IMG/VR virus record: IMGVR_UViG_3300032236_000641
Span: 1 to 22,557 of that record
Length of the DNA: 22,557 nt
Strand: one strand, 5' to 3'
Source: a virus
Part shown: positions 2,781 to 20,406 of the stretch, in pieces
Layout: the number at the start of each line of letters is the position of its first letter
Numbering within the stretch: the stretch's first letter is position 1
The notes under the pieces: generated by a model
Seen by the model: the letters and a program-made list of their open reading frames with translations, nothing else
Told to the model about the DNA's origin: nothing
Databases searched by the model: none
Position numbers and translations under genes: made by a program

Positions 2781-5279
2781 TTATCCGCCGTATACTCTTG
2801 ATGACGGGTTTAATAGGTTACCATAACTCGTTGGTACGTTCTTGGCTACTGTGTTAGCTAGTGTTTGACCATCTACCTGTATGTTTACCGGTCTATCGGC
2901 TACTTTATGAATTGAAGATCTTAAGTCTGCTAATGCACTTACTAGCATAGCTGTATCTTGATTGTTACCACCATTACCTAAGATGTTATTAGCTCTTGGT
3001 GAATTTAGAGGTATAATAGCTTCTGGTCCAGCTTCACCCACGGTTGCATTATCAATTCTACTTGTTACGATACCTCCATCGGCAAATTCTGTTTTCGATT
3101 TTGATCCTGCTATAAGGCTATATAAGCCTGCAACTGCTGTGCCTGCAACTGCTAATCCTGCAAGAGCATATAGTGGATTTGCAACTGCCCATGCTGCAGC
3201 AATTCCTATTTGAGTTGCTAATTCTTCTCCTTTCATCATCACTAAAGCTTCCTGTAAAGTAAGTCTTTCACCTTCTACGCTTAGTTGTACACTTTCATAT
3301 CCTGCTATTGCTTGCTGAATTGTTTTATTTTCAAGTAACACTTTATTAAGTCCTGTAACTGCCCCGATTGTTCTTAACACAGGAATAACTATTGAAGCAC
3401 TCCAAATTGCTGCCACTCCAAGTAATATACCCTGTAATGCACCTGCTTTATCTAGTAAATCTATAAACTGACCTAACATGACTGCAATTGGACCGCTAGC
3501 GATATCTGTTAAGGTTTGTTCTAATTTTTCTACTAAACTATTAAATTTTTCTTGAATTGATCTCTGAGTGTCTTGATCTTGTAGGTAATCTTTTAGAGTC
3601 TTACCTGATTTAAGTAAATCTTTCGCTTGTGCTGCGTTTAGCTCTGCTGCTTTATCACCATACTTAGTAATTGCTTCTTGTTTTAATAGCATCTCAGACA
3701 TTTCTTCTCTTGACATTCCAAAAGCTTGTGCTAGAGATTTTTGTGCAATTACGTTTAGTTTTTGGTAATCAGCTAATGAACCTACTTGACTTGCTATTTC
3801 TTTTTCTAGAGTTAACTGATCACCGGTTAATGCAGCGTACCTAGCTTTTTCTAAATTTAATGCTCTACCTGTTATTAACTCGGCTTCCATTTGAGATTGT
3901 ATAGATGATTCAAAGTTTAACATTGATTCACCTATTTTATCTACACCTTCAAGAGTAGTTCCTAGTTTTTTTGCTTGTACCACTGCTTCTGCAATTGCAG
4001 TAGGATTTTCTTTAAATTTAACAAGTATCCCCGCACTTAGTTTAGAAATTTCCTGTAAAATTTGTTTATCGGTAAAATGTGTCTTGGTTTGTTGTTGAGT
4101 GTAGTATGTAGAGATTCTAATATTATCAATATACTCTTGAAGGTTTTGATTAGCACCTGCTGATGCTAGATCTAACTTAGCTGCTTCAGATGCGGTTAAA
4201 CCTACGATTCCTGTTAATTTAGAGAAAGTAACTAATTCTTCGTTTGAATACTTTACAGCTATACCTAATTCATCTGTTAATTCTGTTTGTGCTTTTAACA
4301 GTTTAGAAGTAGTAACATACCCGTCGTTAGTAGCTTTAGCAAATGCAACCACGTCCTCTCTAACATTTTTTGCTAAATTTGCACTTATACCAAAAGATTT
4401 ACCTAATGCGGTAATTTCTGTACTAGCTCTTCCGATATTTTTTGCAAATAATGCAATAATAGCTGCAGGATCTGTAAGACTTCTACCTAGACTTCTAACT
4501 ATTTCGTTAAGGCCTGTTCCTAATACTCTTAATTGGGCAAAACTTTGTTTTGTTTCAACAGCATATCTAGCTGTAACTCTCATTTTTTCGGCTATACTAC
4601 TGGTATCTACACCGAGTTTACTTAGCCCAGTTGCAAGTGCTGTTACTGCTGTGCCGCTGATGCCCATTGCTCTTGCAATCTGTTCTTCTAGTTTTAATCT
4701 AGCCCTAAGAGCTCTTTCAACTCCAGCGTACCCTAGCTCAGCATCTGCTAAAAATTTCTTAGTTTCACTTTGTGCATCTTTTATTTCTTTTCTTTCTTTT
4801 CTCAAAGCTTTTGCTTCTCTAGACTTTGTATCTACACTTTGTAATTCTTTCGCTATCTGTTCTAACCTATCTTTATTCATAGTTTTAGCAACAGTTAACT
4901 CTGCTTTTTGGATAACTAGTTTCTGTGCTAAACTCTTTAAGTCTTTTTTATTTAATTCAGATATGCCATCCTGATCGTATTTAAGCTTATTTGCTATACT
5001 AGATAAGTTACTAAAAGCTTTTTTAGTTAGAGATAATGCATTATTTTGATTATTTAACTCTGCTACTACTTTTTTTAGTGATTCATAGTAATAGTTTACA
5101 TCTGTATCTAAACCCCTGAACTCTGTACGTAACGATTTTACAGCTTTTTCTACTGCAGAAACACCGGAACCGAAGCTAGCTATAAAAGCATTCATATCCT
5201 GCCGAAAACCACCTCCTGCATCTCTTATCTTTTTATTAAGATCATCTAACTCTTTCTTTAAATCAGCTTCTGTTGCCAT
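2781..5279 (-). CDS. Tail tape measure protein
   Basis: An 832-residue protein. The N-terminal half (residues 1-300) is charged and alpha-helical with likely coiled coil (LKKELDDLNKKIRDAG, several K/E-rich heptads). Two hydrophobic stretches lie at about residues 605-635 (ILLGVAAIWSASIVIPVL) and 690-725 (AAAWAVANPLYALAGLAVAG). Residues 732-758 hold the classical tape-measure C-terminal signature: FADGGIV, then TVGEAGPEAIIPL. It sits directly after the tail-assembly-chaperone-like gene with a frameshift, the usual place for a tape measure. By the general rule of about 0.15 nm per residue, it would set a tail of roughly 125 nm. A TATTTATA motif lies 26 nt ahead of the ATG, so the gene may have its own promoter. 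No lytic transglycosylase or peptidase motif was noticed. Confidence 0.9.
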   Translation of the reverse strand: MATEADLKKELDDLNKKIRDAGGGFRQDMNAFIASFGSGVSAVEKAVKSLRTEFRGLDTDVNYYYESLKKVVAELNNQNNALSLTKKAFSNLSSIANKLKYDQDGISELNKKDLKSLAQKLVIQKAELTVAKTMNKDRLEQIAKELQSVDTKSREAKALRKERKEIKDAQSETKKFLADAELGYAGVERALRARLKLEEQIARAMGISGTAVTALATGLSKLGVDTSSIAEKMRVTARYAVETKQSFAQLRVLGTGLNEIVRSLGRSLTDPAAIIALFAKNIGRASTEITALGKSFGISANLAKNVREDVVAFAKATNDGYVTTSKLLKAQTELTDELGIAVKYSNEELVTFSKLTGIVGLTASEAAKLDLASAGANQNLQEYIDNIRISTYYTQQQTKTHFTDKQILQEISKLSAGILVKFKENPTAIAEAVVQAKKLGTTLEGVDKIGESMLNFESSIQSQMEAELITGRALNLEKARYAALTGDQLTLEKEIASQVGSLADYQKLNVIAQKSLAQAFGMSREEMSEMLLKQEAITKYGDKAAELNAAQAKDLLKSGKTLKDYLQDQDTQRSIQEKFNSLVEKLEQTLTDIASGPIAVMLGQFIDLLDKAGALQGILLGVAAIWSASIVIPVLRTIGAVTGLNKVLLENKTIQQAIAGYESVQLSVEGERLTLQEALVMMKGEELATQIGIAAAWAVANPLYALAGLAVAGTAVAGLYSLIAGSKSKTEFADGGIVTSRIDNATVGEAGPEAIIPLNSPRANNILGNGGNNQDTAMLVSALADLRSSIHKVADRPVNIQVDGQTLANTVAKNVPTSYGNLLNPSSRVYGG

Positions 5280-5312: not shown

Positions 5313-5314
5313 TG

Positions 5315-5339
5315 AAAGCGCCTATTTTTTAGGCGCCTT
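5315..5339 (-). terminator. Hairpin over the stop codon of the frameshifted frame, possible weak terminator
   Basis: On the minus strand AAGGCGCCT, a 7-nt loop AAAAAAT, then AGGCGCTTT form a 9-bp stem with one G-T pair. The TAG stop of the downstream chaperone frame (5322-5324) lies inside it. The tail after the stem is CACTATTTAT, not a clean T run, so termination may be partial; it could instead protect the mRNA end or attenuate read-through before the tape measure promoter. Confidence 0.5.
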
Positions 5340-5594
5340 CGTTGATGTTTTATAGTTAGGTGTGATAGCAGGTCGAGCAATTGGTTTAGGTTCACTCTTA
5401 TTATTTAACATATTCTGCTGCTTATCCTGGATCTCTTTTTGTTTATCGTAGTACTCTTTTAACTTATTAAATGTAAACCTACGTAACCATAACGGCATCT
5501 GGTATACTGTCTCCCAATCATATCCTCCTTGTCCATTAAAAACTATTTCATGGATTTCAGTGAATATATTGATTCTATGCTGTGGTGTCAGGCC
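5322..5594 (-). CDS. Second frame of tail assembly chaperone, reached by ribosomal frameshift
   Basis: After the run of seven T at 5601-5595, the +1 frame stays open for 90 codons to the TAG at 5322-5324. It reads GLTPQHRINIFTEIHEIVFN, then GQGGYDWETVYQMPLWLRRF, TFNKLKEYYD and a lysine/proline-rich tail. The frame has no ATG, GTG or TTG between the upstream TAA and a methionine at residue 33, which lies in the middle of the conserved-looking part, so it cannot be a normal separate gene. Joined to the first 243 residues of the upstream frame it gives a 333-residue protein. Tail assembly chaperones made as short and frameshifted long forms directly upstream of the tape measure gene are established for many phages (lambda G/GT). 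The alternative is a single-base error in the T run, which would fuse the frames outright. Confidence 0.75.
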   Translation of the reverse strand, partial: GLTPQHRINIFTEIHEIVFNGQGGYDWETVYQMPLWLRRFTFNKLKEYYDKQKEIQDKQQNMLNNKSEPKPIARPAITPNYKTSTKAPKK

Positions 5595-6324
5595 AAAAAA
5601 ATGATACAGTAACTGGTATATTTACACCCTCCCCTATGTAGTTATCTGAATCCGGTATAAACTTCATATCTAAATCTGGTGAGATAGAGCTATAGTATTG
5701 ACGTAGAGCTCTTGAATCAGGTGCAAGTAAGTAGTTATCTACGAATTCACGTATTGCTTTTTGTTCTCTATCACCGTTTACTGATGTAATCATAAACTTC
5801 ATCCGTGTTGTGATATCGGTAGTAGTGTTAGGAGAGATCTTTTTAAGACCTTTTATCTCTTTTTCTATCTTTTGTTCATCACCATGAGTTAGTAACTTAA
5901 AGGTCACAACGTTACCTGATTTAGGTAGAGTGTAGGTAAAGTCATTAAGACCTGATTTATACAAATCATAGTCTACGGCTTTGTTCTCTAATATGGATAA
6001 ATCAACAGATACCTGTTGTCCTTCATAGGAAAAGGTGTAGTCTTTACCGTAACCTAAAACCCTTGCAGCTACTAAGATTGCGTTTTTATCGCCAATAAGT
6101 AGATCGTCAAAGTTGATTGGAGTAACGATTAGAGACTGTAATAACTTGTCTAATACTGTACCGTCTTTGATGTAATTACTGTTAGTAAGGATATCTTCCT
6201 CTCTAGCGGTCATATACTTCATTTCTACGGTACCTGATGATAAAGGTGATTCTTTTGGATATAATAACCCTTTGGATGGTAACTCTACCGTTTCTGTTGG
6301 TAGTTTAAATTTTTCTGTTGTCAT
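5575..6324 (-). CDS. gp26-like baseplate hub / tail assembly chaperone protein, zero-frame product
   Basis: A 249-residue protein. The N-terminal part carries the signature seen in T4-type gp26 baseplate hub proteins: VELPSKGLLYP near residues 13-23, then EMKYMTAREEDILTNSNYIK and a DLLIGDKNAILVAARVLGYG stretch around residues 74-93. In T4-like phages gp26 is assigned to baseplate hub assembly; its place just ahead of the tape measure suggests a chaperone that binds the tape measure. The reading frame ends 6 codons after a TTT TTT T run (VSFF then WPDTTA), and another frame continues for 90 codons; see the slippery-site entry. A TATTTATA motif lies 28 nt upstream, and the preceding tube gene is closed by a strong terminator, so this gene probably starts its own transcript. 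Confidence 0.75.
   Translation of the reverse strand: MTTEKFKLPTETVELPSKGLLYPKESPLSSGTVEMKYMTAREEDILTNSNYIKDGTVLDKLLQSLIVTPINFDDLLIGDKNAILVAARVLGYGKDYTFSYEGQQVSVDLSILENKAVDYDLYKSGLNDFTYTLPKSGNVVTFKLLTHGDEQKIEKEIKGLKKISPNTTTDITTRMKFMITSVNGDREQKAIREFVDNYLLAPDSRALRQYYSSISPDLDMKFIPDSDNYIGEGVNIPVTVSFFWPDTTA
5592..5604 (-). promoter_or_regulatory. Slippery heptamer for programmed frameshifting
   Basis: Minus-strand TCA TTT TTT TGG C. Two adjacent Phe codons lie in a run of seven T; moving forward one base lets both tRNAs re-pair on TTT TTT and the next codon becomes GGC, entering the 90-codon open frame. A -2 slip reaches the same frame but pairs worse. A -1 slip would hit TGA two codons later. 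Confidence 0.65.
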
Positions 6325-6450: not shown

Positions 6451-6936
6451 TTAGAAGTTTAGTACACAATAATCCATTGCTATAGTAAGATCGATTTCTA
6501 GTGCATCTGCTGTAGCCCAGTCAAATTGACCGAATGTACCTGTCTTAACATATGCACCTTTTATGATCCATTCACCAACTATATCACCTACTGGACCTAA
6601 AACGTTTAGAGTTAAATCTTTCTTGTAGAAGTCAGAATAACCATCTCTACCTGTTACAGATTCATGTGATAGACGTACCCACTCCATTACTGCTTGAGCA
6701 CCTGAAGGTGTGATTGGGTTGTAAAGAGCTAAGGTCATATCATTCCACTTAACCTTACCTTTTAACTTACGGTAAACGTTGATATGATCTAGAGTGATTT
6801 CACCTGCATCAAAGCCTGGTGCTGATGCTTTCTTGATTAAGTAAGATGGTATACCGTCAATATACATTATAAATCTATTCTGTACTTGAGGTTCAAAAGC
6901 GGTGAAAAATATTTCGTTTGGATCTAAGACTGCCAT
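6451..6936 (-). CDS. gp19: Tail tube protein (T4 gp19 type)
   Basis: A 161-residue protein of the usual tube-protein length. It shows the family pattern: QVQNRFIMYIDGIPSYLIKK near residues 17-36, SAPGFDAGEITLDHINVYRK at 38-57, then KGKVKWNDMTLALYNP and a C-terminal beta strand pair ending EIDLTIAMDYCVLNF. These proteins form the inner hexameric rings through which DNA passes. It follows the sheath gene with one unknown gene between them and is followed by a strong terminator, as expected for an abundant virion protein. A TATTTATA motif sits only 18 nt ahead of the ATG, suggesting a promoter giving extra tube transcript. Confident on fold and order. Confidence 0.92.
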   Translation of the reverse strand: MAVLDPNEIFFTAFEPQVQNRFIMYIDGIPSYLIKKASAPGFDAGEITLDHINVYRKLKGKVKWNDMTLALYNPITPSGAQAVMEWVRLSHESVTGRDGYSDFYKKDLTLNVLGPVGDIVGEWIIKGAYVKTGTFGQFDWATADALEIDLTIAMDYCVLNF

Positions 6937-7755: not shown

Positions 7756-9546
7756 TTATGATCCAAATGTTGCACCAGTAGGTAAGATATTGAAGTTTAA
7801 TAGGATATACTCTGCAGTCTTAGTAGGTTGTAAGTAGATAGCTCCTACTAATTGGTTTCTATCAATTATTGATGGAGTGTTATTTGTATCGTCCATTACT
7901 ACGTTGAATGCATATAAACCTTGTTTTTGCTGTACTGATTGTAGATAAGGGTTAACTTGGTTTAAGAATGAGTTACGAGTAGTTTGTGTGTTTTGTTCGA
8001 ATACTAATGTATTAGCAATACCACCTATATAACGTTTTAATGAGATTAATAATCTTCTTACGTTAACTCTATCTAGTGCAGAAGCTTTAGCTTGTAAAGT
8101 CTTTTGACCGTAGATTACTGTACCTTGACCTGGGAATACTGCAATTGGATTTACTTTTGCTCCGTATAGTAGATCACGTTGTGCTACTGTTAGTCTTCTT
8201 TCTGGTTGAATAACTGTTGTTAAACCACCTCTTGTTAGACCTGCAGGTGCAAACCATTCAGCTGAAATCTTATCACTGTATTCATATACTGCAGGTACGA
8301 TTGTAGATGCAGGGCAGAAAACTAATTTACCAGTTTCGTTTGATGCTAATTGTACCCATGGCCAATATGTAGCTCCGTATGAGTTATCTACAGTTTGTGC
8401 AGAAGTCTTAGCGGTTGAAATATTTTGACCGAATACTGTTGTATCTACTACTGCAATAGCAGTTCCTCTATTTTGTGCTAATGTTAGTAGTGTATTTGCT
8501 ACTGAAGAAGCAGCCTGTAAAGTAATACCCGGAGCGTATATAGTTTTGTAGTCGTATTGGTCTTTATTTACTAATAGGCTTAATGCAATAGTGTAATCAT
8601 TTTGATAAACACCTTGAATGTTATTACCCGCAGTAGTTGGTGCTGTTCCTATACCTCCACCATCTGATGTACTAGGTATATTTGTATAAAGGTTAATTGG
8701 TGCGTTAGTTGGGAAGTTACTTCCTATTGCTGTACCGAAACTACCATTTGCTGATCCAGATCCTACTAGAGGAATTGAACCGGTGTATTGAGTTTGCGGA
8801 GTACCTTGAGCATCAAAGTAGTTAGGTGTTGGCTGTAGAACAGAAGCTACTCTTACGTAATTACTTTGATTTACATATGAACCACTTGTCTGTAGATAGT
8901 AACTATTATCTGTAGGATCTTGAGTTGGAGTAAATGTTTGATCACCAATTACGTAGCTGATATAGTTACTCTGGTTTGGATCTAGAGATAGATTAGCCCA
9001 TGTTTCTAATACAGTCTTACTGTTTTCATAATCATTACCTCTTCTTATTGTAAGAGTGAATAAACCAGATCCTGAACTAGCTGCAGATATCTCCCATCTA
9101 ATATTGCTAACTGAACCTGATGGTAGTAGGCTGCTGTTAACAAGTGATGCACTGAAATCATTATTCATTACAGTACCTTGACCTAAAGTAGCAAGTGTGA
9201 ATGCTACACCAGTAGGGCTTGTTACAGATGCTGTAGCTGAAGTCCAACCTGCTGTATTTGCACTACCTGATGCAACTCTCGTTACAAGTAGAGTAGTACC
9301 ACCTTGTTGGAAGTAGTTGTAAGCTGCTATAGAGGTTAGGTACTCGTAGTTATTACCACCGGTTACAAATAGAGCTCCAAATTGAGATCTAAATGAACTG
9401 TAGGAAGTTACTACGGTTGGAATATTAACTGGACCAAGTACTGTTGGTCCTACAATTGCTGCACCAACCTGTAAAGGTCCTTGCGTGATTTGAGATAGGT
9501 CATTTTCTCTTAAAAAGACCCCTGGAGATATTAAAGTTTCTGCCAT
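7756..9546 (-). CDS. gp18: Contractile tail sheath protein (T4 gp18 type)
   Basis: A 596-residue protein, close to the T4 sheath (659). The N-terminus MAETLISPGVFLRENDLSQI is the usual sheath opening, followed by GAAIVGPTVLGPVNIPTVVT and a SYSSFRSQFG motif near residues 50-59. The middle (about 110-300) is S/G/T-rich and variable, as in surface-exposed sheath domains. The C-terminal third holds the conserved core: QAKASALDRVNVRRLLISLK, then TRNSFLNQVNPYLQSVQ, and the closing AEYILLNFNIL. The sheath polymer contracts to drive the tube into the host envelope. A CTATTTATTATTAAG motif lies 24 nt ahead of the ATG and is nearly identical to the one ahead of the PhoH gene, suggesting strong co-regulated late expression. 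Confidence 0.95.
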   Translation of the reverse strand: MAETLISPGVFLRENDLSQITQGPLQVGAAIVGPTVLGPVNIPTVVTSYSSFRSQFGALFVTGGNNYEYLTSIAAYNYFQQGGTTLLVTRVASGSANTAGWTSATASVTSPTGVAFTLATLGQGTVMNNDFSASLVNSSLLPSGSVSNIRWEISAASSGSGLFTLTIRRGNDYENSKTVLETWANLSLDPNQSNYISYVIGDQTFTPTQDPTDNSYYLQTSGSYVNQSNYVRVASVLQPTPNYFDAQGTPQTQYTGSIPLVGSGSANGSFGTAIGSNFPTNAPINLYTNIPSTSDGGGIGTAPTTAGNNIQGVYQNDYTIALSLLVNKDQYDYKTIYAPGITLQAASSVANTLLTLAQNRGTAIAVVDTTVFGQNISTAKTSAQTVDNSYGATYWPWVQLASNETGKLVFCPASTIVPAVYEYSDKISAEWFAPAGLTRGGLTTVIQPERRLTVAQRDLLYGAKVNPIAVFPGQGTVIYGQKTLQAKASALDRVNVRRLLISLKRYIGGIANTLVFEQNTQTTRNSFLNQVNPYLQSVQQKQGLYAFNVVMDDTNNTPSIIDRNQLVGAIYLQPTKTAEYILLNFNILPTGATFGS

Positions 9547-10156: not shown

Positions 10157-10176
10157 GTTTTATACTAATAAATATA
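10157..10176 (-). promoter_or_regulatory. Candidate late promoter, 20-bp perfect copy of the one at 14453
   Basis: Coding strand TATATTTATTAGTATAAAAC, identical over all 20 bases to 14453-14472. It overlaps the last codons and stop of the APS-kinase gene and would drive the small membrane-protein gene whose ATG ends at 10148. Confidence 0.55.
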
Positions 10177-10599
10177 GTCAGAAAAGAAAATATTACATAT
10201 TTCTGACGCTGTTTTATTTGTTGTATCTACAGCAATAAAATTAGTAAGTGGTTGTTCGTAAATAGTATGGTAGTTTTCTTTACCCCTAACCTCACTAGTG
10301 TGAATATAGTATTCTGTTAATTTATTTCCAACCTTTTGTTTGAAATTTTCACGTTGGTCTCTATAAGGTGAAACCATTGCTACTATTACATCTTTATTAT
10401 TTTGATGTAGATAGTAAGCTATATTTTGAGCTAACTCGATATTATCTCGTCTACCTTTTTCAGAATAGTCTTTATTATTGAATAATTTTCTCATCTGGTC
10501 ACCATCTATTAAAAATGCTGATTTGAATCTATCTTTTAATAGTTCTCTGGCAATTGTAGTCTTACCTGCACCCGGTTGTCCAGTTAACCAAATTATCAT
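10165..10599 (-). CDS. cysC: Adenylylsulfate (APS) kinase-like protein
   Basis: A 144-residue P-loop kinase. It has the APS-kinase landmarks in order: Walker A GQPGAGKTT at residues 7-15, FLIDGDQMRKLF at 29-40 (the family's DGD motif), DYSEKGRRDNI at 44-54 and VAMVSPYRDQRENF at 73-86, with Ser77 at the place of the phosphoryl-acceptor-site serine. APS kinase turns APS plus ATP into PAPS, the sulfate donor of sulfotransferases. It is shorter than bacterial CysC (about 200 residues): the lid region before the final YEQPLTNFIAVDTT is cut down, so activity or specificity might differ. The ATG overlaps the sulfotransferase stop (ATGA), tying donor supply to use. No ATP sulfurylase lies in the window, so APS would come from the host. 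A generic phage nucleotide kinase is the alternative. Confidence 0.8.
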   Translation of the reverse strand: MIIWLTGQPGAGKTTIARELLKDRFKSAFLIDGDQMRKLFNNKDYSEKGRRDNIELAQNIAYYLHQNNKDVIVAMVSPYRDQRENFKQKVGNKLTEYYIHTSEVRGKENYHTIYEQPLTNFIAVDTTNKTASEICNIFFSDYIY

Positions 10600-11414
10600 C
10601 TGTATCTAAATTTTTCGTTATACCACTTATAGTTATTCATTATCCAATCACAAACATCTTTACCTAGTATTTGAGTAGCTTTAGATGTTACTGGTTCTAG
10701 TTTAGTTCTGATAACATGATCTCCATAAACACCGTATACTTCATCATCTTCTTTTGTAACCTGTTCTATGTTATCAAAATCATGTTCAAAGAATGGTATG
10801 TCTAGATAAGTGTAAATTCGCTGCATTTCTCTTTCTGGGTATAGACATAAATCTTCAAACTTAACAAATAGTACTTTACTATCTATTCCCATTCTAAGCA
10901 TTTCATTAAGTCTTTCAAATGCCATACCAACTGGTGGATTTTGTACCCACAAATCAATACGCTTAGGTGTTGTAGTACCTTGCATCTTAGACCAATCTAA
11001 TAATGGACTTGCTTTATCACTAGCCTTTCTAAAATTCTTTTCCATTGAAGCAAATATATCTCTTGGATCTCTAACCATACAGATAATCTTTGGATCTGGC
11101 TGTATCATGTTTAGAAAATCATAATGAATACCCCATCCTCTACTCTTATCAATAACATATTTCTTGTCTGTTATTCCATTGTAAAAACCATACATCCCAG
11201 CATGACAGAAATTAAGAAAACCTAATTTCATTAATTCTGCATCTTGTGCTTTGAATTCTGGTGAGTTGGTGTAGTTACCTCTAGCTGCAAATATTAGTTC
11301 AAGAACACCTGAAGTTGGTGTTGCATACATATCTGGATTCTGTGCTAGGATATTTTGTAATAGAGTTGAACCTGCTCTTGGTAATGAGCTTTGATAAAAT
11401 ATTTTTTCTACCAT
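10596..11414 (-). CDS. PAPS-dependent sulfotransferase
   Basis: A 272-residue protein with the two PAPS-binding signatures of the sulfotransferase superfamily: the 5'-phosphosulfate loop SLPRAGSTLLQNIL at residues 10-23 and the 3'-phosphate motif ICMVRDPRDIFASME at 111-125. A later FVKFEDLCLYPEREMQ and the helical C-terminus also fit. Such enzymes move sulfate from PAPS to a hydroxyl on a sugar or on a protein tyrosine; the LPRAGSTLL form is seen in both glycan and tyrosyl-protein types, so the acceptor cannot be told. It starts inside the TAATG junction with the glycosyltransferase and overlaps the APS-kinase ATG by 4 bp, so the three are translated together. No signal peptide: it acts in the cytoplasm. 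The likely substrate is a phage fibre glycan or tyrosine, or a host surface-sugar precursor (inference). Confidence 0.88.
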   Translation of the reverse strand: MVEKIFYQSSLPRAGSTLLQNILAQNPDMYATPTSGVLELIFAARGNYTNSPEFKAQDAELMKLGFLNFCHAGMYGFYNGITDKKYVIDKSRGWGIHYDFLNMIQPDPKIICMVRDPRDIFASMEKNFRKASDKASPLLDWSKMQGTTTPKRIDLWVQNPPVGMAFERLNEMLRMGIDSKVLFVKFEDLCLYPEREMQRIYTYLDIPFFEHDFDNIEQVTKEDDEVYGVYGDHVIRTKLEPVTSKATQILGKDVCDWIMNNYKWYNEKFRYR

Positions 11415-12723: not shown

Positions 12724-14415
12724 TTATGTTAATCTTATCTTTAATATACCTGCAGTATGGTAAACACCTCCTACCGGTATTCCTCCGGCTGCTGCTGCTG
12801 TATCATTTGTGAAGTTTTGAGTTTTTATAGTTGGTGATACTAGATTATTTATGTATAGAGAGCAGTCACTAGATGCTGTTAATCCACAACCAATTGCTGC
12901 TGAATAATTTCCTGATACTGTGTTGCTTTTACCACCCGGTATTATTCCATACATTCCAGTAATATTATTGCCATAACCGCCACTTATTGTTGAATAGTTT
13001 GAATTATACCCTGAAATACTATTACCATTACCGCCACTTATTGTTGAATAGTTTGAATTAGTTCCGGTTATACCGTTACTCTGTCCCCCACCTATTATGG
13101 ATTGTACTGAATGTTGTCCAGTTATACTGTTAAAACTACCACCTCCTATAAATGAATAGTATGTACTCTCTCCACTAATACTATTATTGTAACCACCACT
13201 TATTGTTGAATAGTTTGAACATGTTCCTGAAATACTGTTGCTATAACCACCACTTATTGTTGAATAGCTTGAATTACAACCACAAATATGGCTATTTTTA
13301 CCACCACCTATTGTTGAATAACATGAATTTGTTCCTGAAATAGCATTGTCACGGCCACCACCTATGGTTGAAAATTGTGAGTGTTGTCCAGAAATACTGT
13401 TAGTACTACCGCCACCTATTGTTGAATATTGGGAATATGTTCCACTAATATTATTATTGTAACCGCCACTTATTGTTGAAGTTTGTGAATAACACCCTGA
13501 AATATTATTACCTGTACCACCACCAATTGTTGAGTAATATGAATTACACCCTGAAATACTATTAACTACCCCACCACCAATTGATGAGAAGTATGAATTA
13601 TTACCATTTATACAGTTACCCTCACCACCTGAGATTGTGGATCCTTGTGAATTAATTCCAGGAATCTGATTATTGTAGCCACCACTAATAGTTGAACAGT
13701 TTGCATTATTTGATGATACAATCGAATTATTGTACCCTCCGCTTATAGTTGCATTACAGGCATATGGTGATGATATTATATTACCAAGACCTCCTCCTAT
13801 TGTTGCAAACACTGCGTAACATCCAGAAATAGTATTACTACTACCCCCACTAATTGTCATACCTACACCGTAATATCCTGAAGCAGTGTTGTTACTACCT
13901 CCTGCTATTGTTGAGCGAGATGTATCATTTGAACTATTAATAGTGTTAGTACAACCACCACTTATTGTAGAGCATTGGCCTAGAACGGTGTTATTGTTAC
14001 AGTCTCTAACTGTAGATCCAGCACCTGCTCCTTGTATCATAACACCACCTCCCCCACCACCATTTAAAGCGTATGAAGCAGTAACTGCACAACTAGCAGT
14101 ACCTGTGATACCATTTGTTACAGTCAGTGAACCAGTTATAATAAGTGTGTCAGCATTCGATGTAAACACGCTACCCGTTACAGATGAAGATACTGCTAAT
14201 GAACCTGTGATAACAGCATTACCTGTATATGGAAATGCAGCTCCACCTCCTCCATTCATTGCATATGAAGCGGTTAGTGCGTAAGAGGCTGATGTTGCGT
14301 TTGTGGCAGAACCAGATAGACTACCTGTGATACCGTTTGTTACGATTAGAGAACCGGATACGACTGTATTGTTCTTGGTAATAATACCATTACGGGCTAT
14401 AAATTCATTTGCCAT
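12724..14415 (-). CDS. Tail fibre with about twenty 18-residue STIGGG/SISG repeats
   Basis: A 563-residue fibre-type protein. Residues 1-128 hold ITGSL-type beta repeats and ASYA segments (SATNATSASYALTASYAMNG, FPYTGNAVITGSLAV) also present in the 946-aa fibre. Residues 149-511 are about twenty 18-residue repeats of the pattern YSTIxGGxxNxISGxxSx, much like the left-handed beta-roll of YadA-type adhesin heads, ending in a degenerate unit AAIGCGL. The last 50 residues (ending GGVYHTAGILKIRLT) form a separate cap. The protein has 16 cysteines, mostly at fixed repeat positions, which is unusual for an external phage fibre. It is likely a trimeric host-binding fibre. Candidate promoter 49 nt upstream; the sugar/sulfate genes follow in the same direction. 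Confidence 0.82.
   Translation of the reverse strand: MANEFIARNGIITKNNTVVSGSLIVTNGITGSLSGSATNATSASYALTASYAMNGGGGAAFPYTGNAVITGSLAVSSSVTGSVFTSNADTLIITGSLTVTNGITGTASCAVTASYALNGGGGGGVMIQGAGAGSTVRDCNNNTVLGQCSTISGGCTNTINSSNDTSRSTIAGGSNNTASGYYGVGMTISGGSSNTISGCYAVFATIGGGLGNIISSPYACNATISGGYNNSIVSSNNANCSTISGGYNNQIPGINSQGSTISGGEGNCINGNNSYFSSIGGGVVNSISGCNSYYSTIGGGTGNNISGCYSQTSTISGGYNNNISGTYSQYSTIGGGSTNSISGQHSQFSTIGGGRDNAISGTNSCYSTIGGGKNSHICGCNSSYSTISGGYSNSISGTCSNYSTISGGYNNSISGESTYYSFIGGGSFNSITGQHSVQSIIGGGQSNGITGTNSNYSTISGGNGNSISGYNSNYSTISGGYGNNITGMYGIIPGGKSNTVSGNYSAAIGCGLTASSDCSLYINNLVSPTIKTQNFTNDTAAAAGGIPVGGVYHTAGILKIRLT
12883..13971 (-). repeat. In-frame 54-bp tandem repeat array of the fibre
   Basis: About twenty tandem 54-bp units coding for 18-residue repeats with core STI(S/G)GG and (N)SISG. 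Units differ in sequence, with the TTGTTGAATA-like stretch most conserved on the plus strand. Unit number may vary between relatives through slippage or recombination. Confidence 0.88.
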
Positions 14416-15320: not shown

Positions 15321-18161
15321 TTATATGTAAGTTACCTGTGATTTAATTGTCCAACCTGCTGCTGGAGTATAAGTACTTAGTACTACGTTTGCTCCTGATA
15401 TTGAAACTGATGATGTAACAGCTGCAGTATTACCAATATCCGGTGTTGAATTATCTGTAAATTGTACTGATGTACCGTTCCATATCGCCATTACTTCACC
15501 TGCTCTTGCATTTGACTGCGACGTAAATGTATACTTATAGAATGCTGATGTATAAGAACCGGTTGCTTGTGTGAATACAGTATTACTACCTACAGTAGAT
15601 GTTATTGTTGATGTTGTAATAGTACTTGGTCCTATGTTTAGAGAACCTGTCACAGTTATACCGCTTCCTGATACTAATAATGAACCTGTTATAGTTTGGT
15701 TACCTATAAAAGTATTTGAACCTGTGGTTGCAAGTGATGCACTTAAAGAAGTAAATATTGGATCTTTCTCGTTATAGTAAGATGCAGTAGCAACTGTCAT
15801 TGAAGAAGTTGTACTGGTCAGTACATATAAAGGTGCATAAGATGCTGTTGCTGCATATGATGCAGAAGTTACACTACCTCCGTAATAACTTGCAGTTGCA
15901 GCGTATGAACTAGTAGTAGCTGTAGCAGCATTTCCTGTTATTGATACTCCAAGATTATTTGATGCTATCCATTTTGCTGTACTATTATCATATACTAACG
16001 CATACTTATCAATACCACTTCCCTCAGTTACGTTGACATCTGATAGACCATCTAATCTCTGTGTTATTACAGAACCTCCACCTCCTGACCCTCCAACCTG
16101 TCTGAATAGACCACCAGGTACTATAGAGTAGGAGGTATTATCGGTAAAGTTAGCATTGTTTCTTACTATCAAAGCACCGACATAGATAGCATTAGCTGCC
16201 GTATTAGGTGCTTCTACAAATGATTCTATGCTTATATTAGCGATAGCATCGGCCTGTGTAGTATAAGTTGCATTACCGTAGTACACTACTATTGCCTTAG
16301 TTACAGAGTTTGGATACCAGAATACACGTTGTATTGACCATTGTCTATTTGGACCACCACCCGGTACTGCTGTCAATACTCCGTTATTAGAATATTGAGT
16401 TGGATCTATTGCACCATATCCAGCACCATTATTTGTATTATAAACCCAGTTATTATTACCTGAACCAGATTGATAATATCTGTATATCTTAGATACTGAT
16501 GTACCATTATCAGTTACGTAAGCCGGATTATTTGGGTCAGTTTGATAATTAGCACCATCAGCAAATGAAGTACCACCCGTCACTACAATACTTCCGGTTG
16601 ATGAACCGCTCACTGCTAGTATGTGACCAGATAATTTTAATGGTCCGAAAGCAGTTACAAATATATTTGATCTCTGTTTCCATCCATATGCTAAAGAAGG
16701 TTGTGTCTTGACACCATTTATTGTTGAGTGGTTTTGGTGTAGTACAATACCTAATGGTATTAACGTATCAATTTGACCATCATAATAAGGTGTGCCTGAA
16801 GAATTTATTTGCCCTGAACTGTTTATAGCTATGAATGTCTGGTCATAAGAAGCACTTAGAGGTGCTATACTTGATGACAGGTTAGACCAGTTTAAGTATT
16901 GTATAGTAGGAAATGGATTATTGGTTAAAGAGGCATTTAGGTTTACTATTATGCCGCTACCACTAGCTACTTGATAAACAGTAGCTGATTGAGTTGTTAT
17001 TAGTCCACCATTTAATAAACCTGAATACAAATTACCTTCAATCCATCTTAAACGCGTTACATTATTATATCCGCTACCATTTTGACTAAAGTATAAATCA
17101 TTTGTTGAACCTGATACGTAAATATAAGATGCTGATATTGATTGATTTGTGTTTGTATTTACAGGTAGGTATTCACTGTATCCTGCTATAATACTATTAC
17201 CTGCTACTTGAACACTGCCAGTTACTATTAAACCACTACCTGTTATAAGTAGTGAACCTGATATAACAGCATTTCCTATGTATGGGAATACTTGATTTCC
17301 TATATTAGGTACATAAGAGGCTGTTGCTGCATATGAACTTGATATAGCGTTTAGTACGTAACTAGCTGTTTGGGCTTGTTGTACATAAGATGCAGTACTA
17401 GCATATGATGCACTTGCAACAGACATTGAACTAGTTTGTGCAGTAGTTATAAATGATGAGGTATTACTGCTTAATACATATGGACTAAGCATTGAAGCAG
17501 TAGTGCTAGTTAATACATACAAAGGGGCATATGATGCTGTAGCAGCATAAGATGCAGAAGTAACACTACCTCCATAGTATGAGGCTGTACTGGCGTAACT
17601 AGCCGATACTGCGTTTAAGACGTAAGATGCTGTAGAACTATAAGAAGCACTTGTAGCAAAGCTGGATGATCCTGCATAGCTAGATGTAGCTGAATAACTC
17701 GATGATATAGCATAAGAAGCTGATGTTGCATTTGATACTGAACCGCTATAATAAGATGCTGTAGCCGCGTAGGAAGATGATATTGCGTTTAAAACATAGC
17801 TTGCTGTTTGGGCATTAACTACATAAGAGGCTGTAGCAGCATAAGATGCAGAAGTAACACTACCTCCATAGTATGAGGCTGTACTAGCAAAGCTAGATGA
17901 TACAGCATTTTTTACATAACTTGCTGTTTGTGCTGTTTGTACATATGATGCTGTGGCAACTGTCATTGAACTAGTCTGACTAGTTAACACGTAAGGGCTA
18001 AGCATTGACGCAGTAGTACTAGTTAGTAGGTATAAAGGTGCATACGATGCTGTACTAGCAAAACTAGATGATATAGCATTTGACGCTGTACCTTGTAGAG
18101 AACCACTAAATGACCCAGATAACGGGTATAGTATTTGATTGCTATGTATTAAATTTGCCAT
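15321..18161 (-). CDS. Large tail fibre rich in ASY repeats
   Basis: A 946-residue protein. Residues 30-283 carry 19 copies of ASY in S/A/T-rich units such as SASYAATASYV and YYGGSVTSASYAATASYAPL; a further short cluster lies near residue 745-800. A FPYIGNAVISGSLLITGSG stretch at about 292-310 repeats the module found in the 563-aa fibre. The middle (310-740) is mixed beta-rich sequence with INSSGTPYYDGQIDTLIPLG, and the C-terminus has an Ig-like look. A 55-nt stretch is repeated exactly within the gene. It starts in a TAATG overlap with the gp15-like gene. The composition fits a long trimeric fibre shaft; which end binds the host is not clear. Confidence 0.8.
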   Translation of the reverse strand: MANLIHSNQILYPLSGSFSGSLQGTASNAISSSFASTASYAPLYLLTSTTASMLSPYVLTSQTSSMTVATASYVQTAQTASYVKNAVSSSFASTASYYGGSVTSASYAATASYVVNAQTASYVLNAISSSYAATASYYSGSVSNATSASYAISSSYSATSSYAGSSSFATSASYSSTASYVLNAVSASYASTASYYGGSVTSASYAATASYAPLYVLTSTTASMLSPYVLSSNTSSFITTAQTSSMSVASASYASTASYVQQAQTASYVLNAISSSYAATASYVPNIGNQVFPYIGNAVISGSLLITGSGLIVTGSVQVAGNSIIAGYSEYLPVNTNTNQSISASYIYVSGSTNDLYFSQNGSGYNNVTRLRWIEGNLYSGLLNGGLITTQSATVYQVASGSGIIVNLNASLTNNPFPTIQYLNWSNLSSSIAPLSASYDQTFIAINSSGQINSSGTPYYDGQIDTLIPLGIVLHQNHSTINGVKTQPSLAYGWKQRSNIFVTAFGPLKLSGHILAVSGSSTGSIVVTGGTSFADGANYQTDPNNPAYVTDNGTSVSKIYRYYQSGSGNNNWVYNTNNGAGYGAIDPTQYSNNGVLTAVPGGGPNRQWSIQRVFWYPNSVTKAIVVYYGNATYTTQADAIANISIESFVEAPNTAANAIYVGALIVRNNANFTDNTSYSIVPGGLFRQVGGSGGGGSVITQRLDGLSDVNVTEGSGIDKYALVYDNSTAKWIASNNLGVSITGNAATATTSSYAATASYYGGSVTSASYAATASYAPLYVLTSTTSSMTVATASYYNEKDPIFTSLSASLATTGSNTFIGNQTITGSLLVSGSGITVTGSLNIGPSTITTSTITSTVGSNTVFTQATGSYTSAFYKYTFTSQSNARAGEVMAIWNGTSVQFTDNSTPDIGNTAAVTSSVSISGANVVLSTYTPAAGWTIKSQVTYI
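17313..18074 (-). repeat. Degenerate ASY repeat region with a 55-bp exact direct repeat
   Basis: Codes for residues 30-283 of the fibre. Positions 17537-17591 and 17831-17885 are identical over 55 bp and lie 294 bp apart, which is 98 codons, so recombination between them would delete an in-frame segment. A third, diverged copy lies near 15840-15895. Confidence 0.85.
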
Positions 18162-19442: not shown

Positions 19443-19898
19443 TTACATGTGAATTGTTTTTACACCAGGACACATTTCTCTAATTTCTTCTTTAGTGTAT
19501 TTTTTAGAAAATGGAGTATTTCTTAAATAAAGAGTTCTACCTACTTTTAAATCTTGAGGTAGAGAAGTGATTTTACTACTGTTCAAATTAAGACCTCCAC
19601 CTATTTCTAAACCTTGAGGTAGAGAGGTAATTGAAGTATTATATAAAATAAGATTTCCGCCTACTTTAAAATCTTTAGGTAAAGATGTGATTGAAGTACT
19701 ACTTAACCAAAGATCACCACTTACTTTTAAATCTTGAGGTAGAGAAGTGATTTTAGTGCCACTTAAATCAAGATTACCTTCTATATTCAAATCTTTAGGG
19801 GTTAGAGATTCAGGTTCGTACACAAACCTGTACTTAATAGGCTTTTTTCTACCATCTTTCTTTTCTAGAAAATCAAAAAATTGTTTTATGTGATTCAT
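19443..19898 (-). CDS. Small leucine-rich-repeat protein inserted between neck genes
   Basis: A 151-residue protein, read from the ATG ending at 19898; an ATG at 19952 would lengthen it by 18 residues but overlaps the gp14-like gene by 44 bp and adds unlikely sequence. After a charged N-terminus (MNHIKQFFDFLEKKDGRKKP) come four full 20-residue repeats at 37-116, of the kind GNLDLSGTKITSLPQDLKV, then a fifth partial one and a C-terminal cap YTKEEIREMCPGVK. This short LRR type with the same cap recurs in phage genomes. No signal peptide, so cytoplasmic or virion. Its site between two neck genes, 10 nt from each neighbour, marks it as a likely late insertion (moron); function unknown, possibly protein binding. 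Confidence 0.8.
   Translation of the reverse strand: MNHIKQFFDFLEKKDGRKKPIKYRFVYEPESLTPKDLNIEGNLDLSGTKITSLPQDLKVSGDLWLSSTSITSLPKDFKVGGNLILYNTSITSLPQGLEIGGGLNLNSSKITSLPQDLKVGRTLYLRNTPFSKKYTKEEIREMCPGVKTIHM
19509..19790 (-). repeat. 60-bp tandem repeats encoding LRR units
   Basis: Four full and one partial 60-bp in-frame unit, core ITSLPQDLKVGGNLxLxxT. The plus-strand text aaatcttgaggtagagaagt recurs with few changes. Confidence 0.85.
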
Positions 19899-19908
19899 TA
19901 TATTATAA

Positions 19909-20406
19909 TTAATTACCCGGTATAACCTTATCAAGATTAAGTCTAAATCCACGAGTTAAGTGAGTTGATAATACTACAGAATAGTTATTACCAAAGTTTT
20001 CTAATCCTGATGAATAAGCGTATTGATTATCTTTACCCATTACAAGTTGATTGAAGTTAACATTATCTACTTCGTAGAATACTTCATTATACATCACAAT
20101 ATCACCTACTTCAGACATTATATTTGCATCCTCCATATCATCACGTAGGAATCTAAATGTAACGTCACGATCTGTATCAACCCCAAAATCATCTACTGGT
20201 GCTCTAAAATCTCCTCTTTCAATTAAACAGTTAAAAAGTACCGGTCCTATGTAGCTTTTATTTAAAGACTCACCGTAGATATTTGCCGGTGTGGACTGTA
20301 GAGAAAGCTTATAATACCCAACTTGTTGCGTGATAATATCATTTACAAGCTCTTTTGAGAAAAGCTTGAAAGTATCTATATCGTTTATTGATCCAAAGAT
20401 TGCCAT
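19909..20406 (-). CDS. Neck protein (T4 gp14 type)
   Basis: A 165-residue protein: MAIFGSINDIDTFKLFSKEL, LVNDIITQQVGYYKLSLQST, a beta-rich middle with NCLIERGDFRAPVDDFGVDT and FRFLRDDMEDANIMSEVGDI, then VMYNEVFYEVDNVNFNQLVM. The GD(I)V..NE.FYEVDN..NQ pattern is like T4 gp14, which with gp13 forms the neck between head and tail. It starts 2 nt after the gp13-like gene, matching the 13-14 order of T4. A possible copy of the TATTTAT motif lies 10 nt upstream, within the end of the preceding gene, but coding need explains it. Confidence 0.65.
   Translation of the reverse strand: MAIFGSINDIDTFKLFSKELVNDIITQQVGYYKLSLQSTPANIYGESLNKSYIGPVLFNCLIERGDFRAPVDDFGVDTDRDVTFRFLRDDMEDANIMSEVGDIVMYNEVFYEVDNVNFNQLVMGKDNQYAYSSGLENFGNNYSVVLSTHLTRGFRLNLDKVIPGN

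Follow-up and report, generated by a model that had tools for sequence, protein, structure and literature searches.

A probable programmed +1 frameshift in the T4-type tail assembly chaperone gene of a contractile-tailed virus

We have analysed a stretch of 22,557 bases, the virus record IMGVR_UViG_3300032236_000641 (hereafter the window), on the minus strand of which a gene for a protein resembling T4 gp26 ends shortly after a run of seven T's and a second open frame, out of register with the first, continues beyond it. The question raised by this locus is whether ribosomes reach the second frame through a programmed shift, as an earlier note on this DNA had proposed, and, if they do, in which direction they slip. 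We consider it highly probable that the locus is a chaperone gene of a T4-type contractile phage from which a short protein, G, and, through a +1 slip of the P-site tRNA, a longer protein, GT, are made.

The probable chaperone gene and its neighbours

The gene for G (5575..6324, minus strand) encodes a probable short tail assembly chaperone, a T4 gp26-like protein of 249 amino acids that matches phrog_150 (E=6e-10). The seven T's lie at 5601-5595 and are read in the zero frame as TTT (5601-5599), TTT (5598-5596) and TGG (5595-5593), followed by CCT GAC ACC ACA GCA TAG; the zero-frame product ends in SFFWPDTTA*, with its stop six codons past the two Phe codons, as had been claimed. The +1 frame opens just upstream of the T run, resumes at GGC (5594-5592) and stays open for 90 codons, also as claimed, up to a TAG stop at 5324-5322, which coincides with the lower limit of the region originally marked. 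This extension, T (5322..5594, minus strand), is a helical stretch of 90 amino acids (GLTPQHRINIFTEIHEIVFNGQGGYDWETVYQMPLWLRRF...) for which relatives were found with the T part alone, and, again in line with the earlier reading, the +1 frame of the window, followed from its upstream stop as far as the conserved core of T, is free of ATG, GTG and TTG codons. When TGGC is read as one step, G and T join into a predicted GT of 333 amino acids (5322..6324, minus strand). The two-frame arrangement, with T out of register at the seven-T site, is confirmed as real. We note that there are four T7 or A7 runs in the 22.5-kb window, so the T run by itself could be due to chance.

The minus strand of the window carries a contractile-tail module made up of sheath, tube, the G/T pair, tape measure and a baseplate wedge-like protein. 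The sheath gene (7756..9546, minus strand; PF04984 E=1e-13, phrog_23 E=6e-72) shows that the tail is contractile. The next gene upstream of G (6451..6936, minus strand) encodes the tail tube protein (phrog_4542 E=4.8e-19; its PF06841 gp19 match, E=4.2e-5, is under Pfam's cut-off) and the next gene downstream of T (2781..5279, minus strand) encodes the tape measure protein (phrog_167, tail length tape measure protein, E=7.8e-6). G and T therefore sit between the tail-tube and tape-measure genes, the placement typical of G/GT-type pairs, and just before the tape measure gene, as had been claimed.

Several other features of the region deserve mention. At 5313-5340, overlapping the stop codon of T and just before the tape measure gene, the sequence reads as a perfect hairpin, GCGCCTAAAAAATAGGCGC, followed by TTT, which may be an attenuator, a terminator or a processing site. 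Among the tail genes, an APS-kinase-like gene (PF01583, E=2e-19) adjoins a sulfotransferase gene (PF13469, E=6e-21) at 10165-11414, a pair that could possibly serve phage-encoded sulfation. Repeat-built tail-fibre-like proteins are encoded at 15321-18161 and 12724-14415 (SASYAATASYA; ISGG.NN.ISG), the second of them with no Pfam match, and a small leucine-rich-repeat-like ORF, with LRR matches below threshold, lies at 19443-19952 over the 3' end of a neighbouring gene.

Judged by sequence, G is homologous to T4 gp26, and GT is homologous to T4 gp51 from end to end. Both T4 proteins belong to phrog_150 and PF12322, and gp51 covers the phrog profile to its end, which gp26 does not reach. A GT profile aligned co-linearly with a profile of gp51 and of cyanophage and Firmicute GT proteins (E=2.8e-20), a strong match to gp51 that was obtained only with the cyanophage and Firmicute intermediates; with hhalign against T4 gp51 alone the matches were weak (GT, E=8e-4; T alone, 0.015). 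The T profile by itself matched the cyanophage T domain with E=6.5e-6. The PF12322 score of G in the window is 19.5 bits, against a Pfam cut-off of 24.5 bits and scores of 100.4 for Bacillus phage SP-15 and 89.1 for Streptococcus phage GXN1, and a PF12322 search in the window's own record gave no match. Matches in BFVD include the baseplate hub subunit of SP-15. The structures of G and T were predicted separately, as plain translations of the window, and the fold search was made with G. The model of G has a pLDDT of 90.9, with the last residues past the slip site disordered, and that of T consists of three helices with a mean pLDDT of 76. Among PDB structures the one ranked first for G is 2OB9, the tail assembly chaperone of HK97, with a weak Foldseek E of 0.71; in VIA-align the same structure (Z 4.8, rmsd 4.6, 98 residues) is top-ranked with a score that is weak by itself. 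We regard the claimed role as a tail assembly chaperone as probable because the homology to gp26/gp51, the position before the tape measure gene and the 2OB9 match all point the same way.

Conservation of the slip site in relatives

Searches for relatives, which the earlier note had called for, were made as two IMG/VR scans, one with a G query and one with a T query, that gave 131 loci, some of them on the same contigs. The junction could be read in 128 sequences including the window, and T is in the +1 frame in all of them; two further scans, seeded with Microcystis phage Mel-JY01 and with a jumbo phage, added 94 more loci, also +1. Every one of the 222 loci whose slip site can be read thus has T in the +1 frame at the same Phe-Phe pair, and so do seven distinct phages, cultured or jumbo: Flavobacterium phage immuto (TTT CTT TGG), Microcystis phage Mel-JY01 (TTT TTT TGG), Bacillus phage SP-15 (TTT TTT CAC), Listeria phage LIS04 (TTT TTT AGT), Streptococcus phage GXN1 (TTC TTT CGT), Rhodothermus phage RM378 (TTT TTT TGG) and jumbo phage LR756508 (TTT CTA). 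The frames stay out of register in close relatives (96-98% identical in G), in more than 100 diverged contigs and in the cultured phages. The loci are phylogenetically related, so counts of loci and of representatives are not independent of one another.

The slip codons are under a constraint that sets them apart from the rest of G. The site, TTT TTT TGG CCT (UUU_UUU_UGG_CCU; 5590..5601, minus strand), has three near-invariant codons, and codon diversity relative to expectation is 0.19 at codon 242, 0.00 at codon 243 and 0.05 at codon 245, against a mean of 0.89 over the 104 testable columns of G. No other of the 104 columns falls below one fifth of expectation; the three are the pair of Phe codons and, two codons further along, CCT. 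The Leu codon of T that overlaps CCT also keeps it fixed, whereas the Phe codons are free of such a restriction at their third bases. Among 113 representatives sharing less than 90% identity, the P-site codon is TTT in 109 and CTT in four, and never TTC, which accounts for 20% of the Phe codons in other parts of these genes. In all 222 loci the P site is TTT or CTT followed by T, and the A-site codon is UGG, UAC or UUC. The earlier note had supposed that a pure T run was involved, which turns out to be unnecessary: 28 loci have TTTCTTT and 14 have TTCTTTT, with T runs only three or four long, and the conserved element is YUU and then U (rarely C or A). The junction thus has the conserved slippery site of a G/GT-type pair. 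Given both the +1 frame in 222 of 222 loci and the collapse of codon diversity, conservation of this arrangement is not due to chance, and at the level of sequence it settles that the frameshift is programmed.

The relatives also bear on the likely host. Immuto infects Flavobacterium and RM378 infects Rhodothermus, and a scan of genome contigs returned, as its sole result, a fragment of a Sphingobacteriales MAG with a close match to G but without the junction. These observations are consistent with a Bacteroidota host for the virus of the window, which the earlier note had supposed. The +1 arrangement also occurs outside that phylum, as SP-15, LIS04, GXN1 and Mel-JY01 demonstrate.

How the second frame may be reached

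The frame architecture and its conservation, the constraint on the slip codons, the homology to gp26/gp51 and the position of the gene can all be read from the sequences; from them we infer the production of a fused GT, a +1 slip in the P site, the ratio of G to GT and the roles of both products. Most ribosomes would stay in frame and make G. A minority would slip one base forward while Phe-tRNA occupies UUU in the P site (in some relatives, Leu-tRNA on CUU) and UGG waits in the A site. The Phe-tRNA would re-pair from UUU at 5598-5596 to the overlapping UUU at 5597-5595, and decoding would restart at GGC to give the G-T protein. By analogy with λ G/GT, the tape measure protein might then be coated by many copies of G and a few of GT, with T recruiting tube subunits.

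The same programmed event could in principle occur through a -2 slip, as is known in phage Mu (PMC5009743), which would give an identical net frame and one extra residue. TTT TTT TGG re-pairs after a -2 slip too, and the TTT TTT AGT of LIS04 re-pairs perfectly by -2 only. However, at TTC TTT TGG (14 loci, L224-L238) and at the TTC TTT CGT of GXN1 a -2 slip would leave Phe-tRNA mismatched at the middle base, on UCU, and at LR756508 (TTT CTA) it finds no good register. A +1 slip keeps P-site pairing at both of these TTC TTT sites and, at all sites, either keeps it or changes it by no more than G-U or wobble, LIS04 being a wobble mismatch; with that one reservation +1 fits every site. We therefore favour the +1 direction, with Phe-tRNA re-pairing as the earlier note had suggested, and regard a -2 slip as unlikely. 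That note had also stressed that most phage cases are -1; a +1 shift is of interest here, but it is less exceptional than was claimed (PMC5009743, PMC10885494).

A quite different possibility is that no fusion is made and that T is an independent small protein translated from a rare start codon or by re-initiation past the G stop. The GenBank records of the cultured and jumbo phages give T as a small separate ORF or leave it unannotated, and submitters annotated such ORFs in immuto, Mel-JY01, SP-15 and RM378; nevertheless, in immuto and SP-15 the starts so annotated fall within or past the conserved core, and 87 of the 113 representatives, the window included, have no ATG, GTG or TTG between the slip site and the T core. 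A separate start for T, which the earlier note had named as evidence against a frameshift, does occur in three metagenomic loci and apparently in the distant jumbo phage LR756511. In one of the three (L044) T has its own ATG after a homing-endonuclease-like insertion, and the slip codons read TTC TTC TGG CCC; in the other two T begins at an ATG just past the G stop, in another frame, and the sites read TTC TTG TAT CCT (L233) and TTC CTT TGG CCA (L239). Judging by these sequences, the three loci have no more need of a shift, and the slip codons are altered in all three, which supports a frameshift at the other loci and suggests that covalent fusion of G and T may be dispensable in some lineages. 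An independent T leaves unexplained why the slip Phe codons stay TTT or CTT and why they change once a real start appears, and we consider it very unlikely as a general account. Two details of these loci may be added: between G and T of L044 (L044:3721-4700) lies an ORF of more than 200 codons (MINTSNNIPLIGIYKITSPTGKIYIGQSKN...) that, judged by eye, resembles a GIY-YIG homing endonuclease, and in LR756511 (L138:3690-3800) a T-like ORF in the -1/+2 frame has a TAATG start over the G stop, which suggests coupled re-initiation.

Transcriptional slippage at the T run, giving mRNAs in which the frames are fused, might be entertained for a seven-T run within an A+T-rich gene. Efficient slippage by bacterial polymerases usually requires longer runs, and the frames and T are kept in the 28 TTTCTTT and 14 TTCTTTT loci. 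TTT CTT TGG and TTC TTT TGG break the T run, which makes polymerase slippage and homopolymer error alike unlikely, and we judge the former still more improbable than an independent T. That one plain gene, with six T's, has been split by a sequencing or assembly error, a concern natural for a homopolymer in a metagenome record, is scarcely conceivable when contigs from different samples, more than 200 in all, and the finished genomes of cultured phages show the same out-of-register architecture, some of them at sites that lack a run of seven.

Returning to a ribosomal +1 slip, we looked for elements that might stimulate it. Folds of the RNA around the slip site are at the level of shuffled sequences. 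Shine-Dalgarno-like elements upstream of the slip site show no clear excess (9 of 42, against a background of 14%) and, where present, mostly start 12-13 nt before the P codon. A hungry or rare A-site codon was also considered and rejected, since in the window TGG (7.5 per 1000) is not rarer than GGC (5.1 per 1000).

Comparison with known frameshifting systems

The pair resembles G/GT of bacteriophage λ in having a short and a frameshift-extended product encoded upstream of the tape-measure gene (in part after PMC5009743). It differs from λ in that the λ shift is -1 and the shift here would be +1 (or formally -2) at UUU_UUU_UGG, and in that the protein, judged by sequence, is a member of the T4 gp26/gp51 group and the phage has a contractile tail. 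T corresponds to the C-terminal part that is present in gp51 and missing from gp26, and the C-terminus of T4 gp26, KEFFELL*, resembles the NFF or SFF at the slip site. In T4, however, the short and long forms come from two genes, whereas the window has one gene with an out-of-frame extension, so the pair is a T4 homologue that is expressed differently and not the T4 arrangement. Some T4-like phages have short and long gene copies instead of a frameshift, according to PMC10885494, which cites Vladimirov et al. 2022 for this.

The gp26/gp51 genes of S-PM2-type cyanophages belong to the same family, share the gene order and have T out of frame past the same Phe-Phe. In these phages (L251-L330 and L250:471-1363) T is in the -1 frame and T TTT TTC is invariant in 80 of 80 loci, so that from sequence a -1 frameshift, opposite in direction to that of the window, is likely. 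Poly-T -1 signals have been credited to T4-like phages (PMC12846349), which fits these 80 loci. At RF2 (prfB), where the site is CUU_UGA, a P-site tRNA likewise slips on YUU followed by U, and CUU_U is a natural variant here; at RF2-type +1 sites the codons most liable to shift include CUU and, after it, CCC and UUU (PMC10885494). The present sites differ from RF2 in having UGG, UAC or UUC in the A site in place of a stop codon, and a consistent upstream Shine-Dalgarno-like element is not seen. The difference from phage Mu is that re-pairing two bases back fails here at the TTC TTT sites.

Frameshifting in tail chaperones, +1 included, is already known. The G/GT shifts of tailed phages may be -1, -2 or +1, and +1 shifts are on record for the haloarchaeal myovirus HSTV-2, for actinophage tail chaperones and for Listeria phage PSA (PMC5009743), the last of which shifts on CCC codons, unlike the present sites; the training set of PRFect holds 350 forward frameshift cases (PMC10885494). 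In the open literature searched, which excluded Vladimirov et al. 2022 (Virology 566:9), we found no report of +1 shifting in T4-type gp26/gp51 chaperones. What appears to be new, with priority uncertain, is that the T4-type family has a conserved RF2-like YUU_U site, putatively +1, for which no stimulator could be detected.

A widespread aquatic group of T4-type phages would thereby join the tail-chaperone frameshifters, with T split off or missed by annotators, and Flavobacterium phage immuto offers a cultured system in which to test the +1 slip. If the site is truly free of stimulators it would be a simple natural substrate for studies of +1 slippage. We offer more tentatively, as a reading with somewhat less than even chances, that the direction of shifting has switched within one chaperone family at a homologous Phe-Phe, being +1 in the group of the window and in SP-15/RM378-type phages and -1 in cyanophages, with a pair of genes taking its place in T4 and a separate T start doing so at a few loci, and that a bare YUU_U suffices for the +1 slip without mRNA structure, Shine-Dalgarno element, stop codon or rare codon. 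Changes among a +1 shift, a -1 shift, a separate start and gene duplication could then be traced inside a single protein family.
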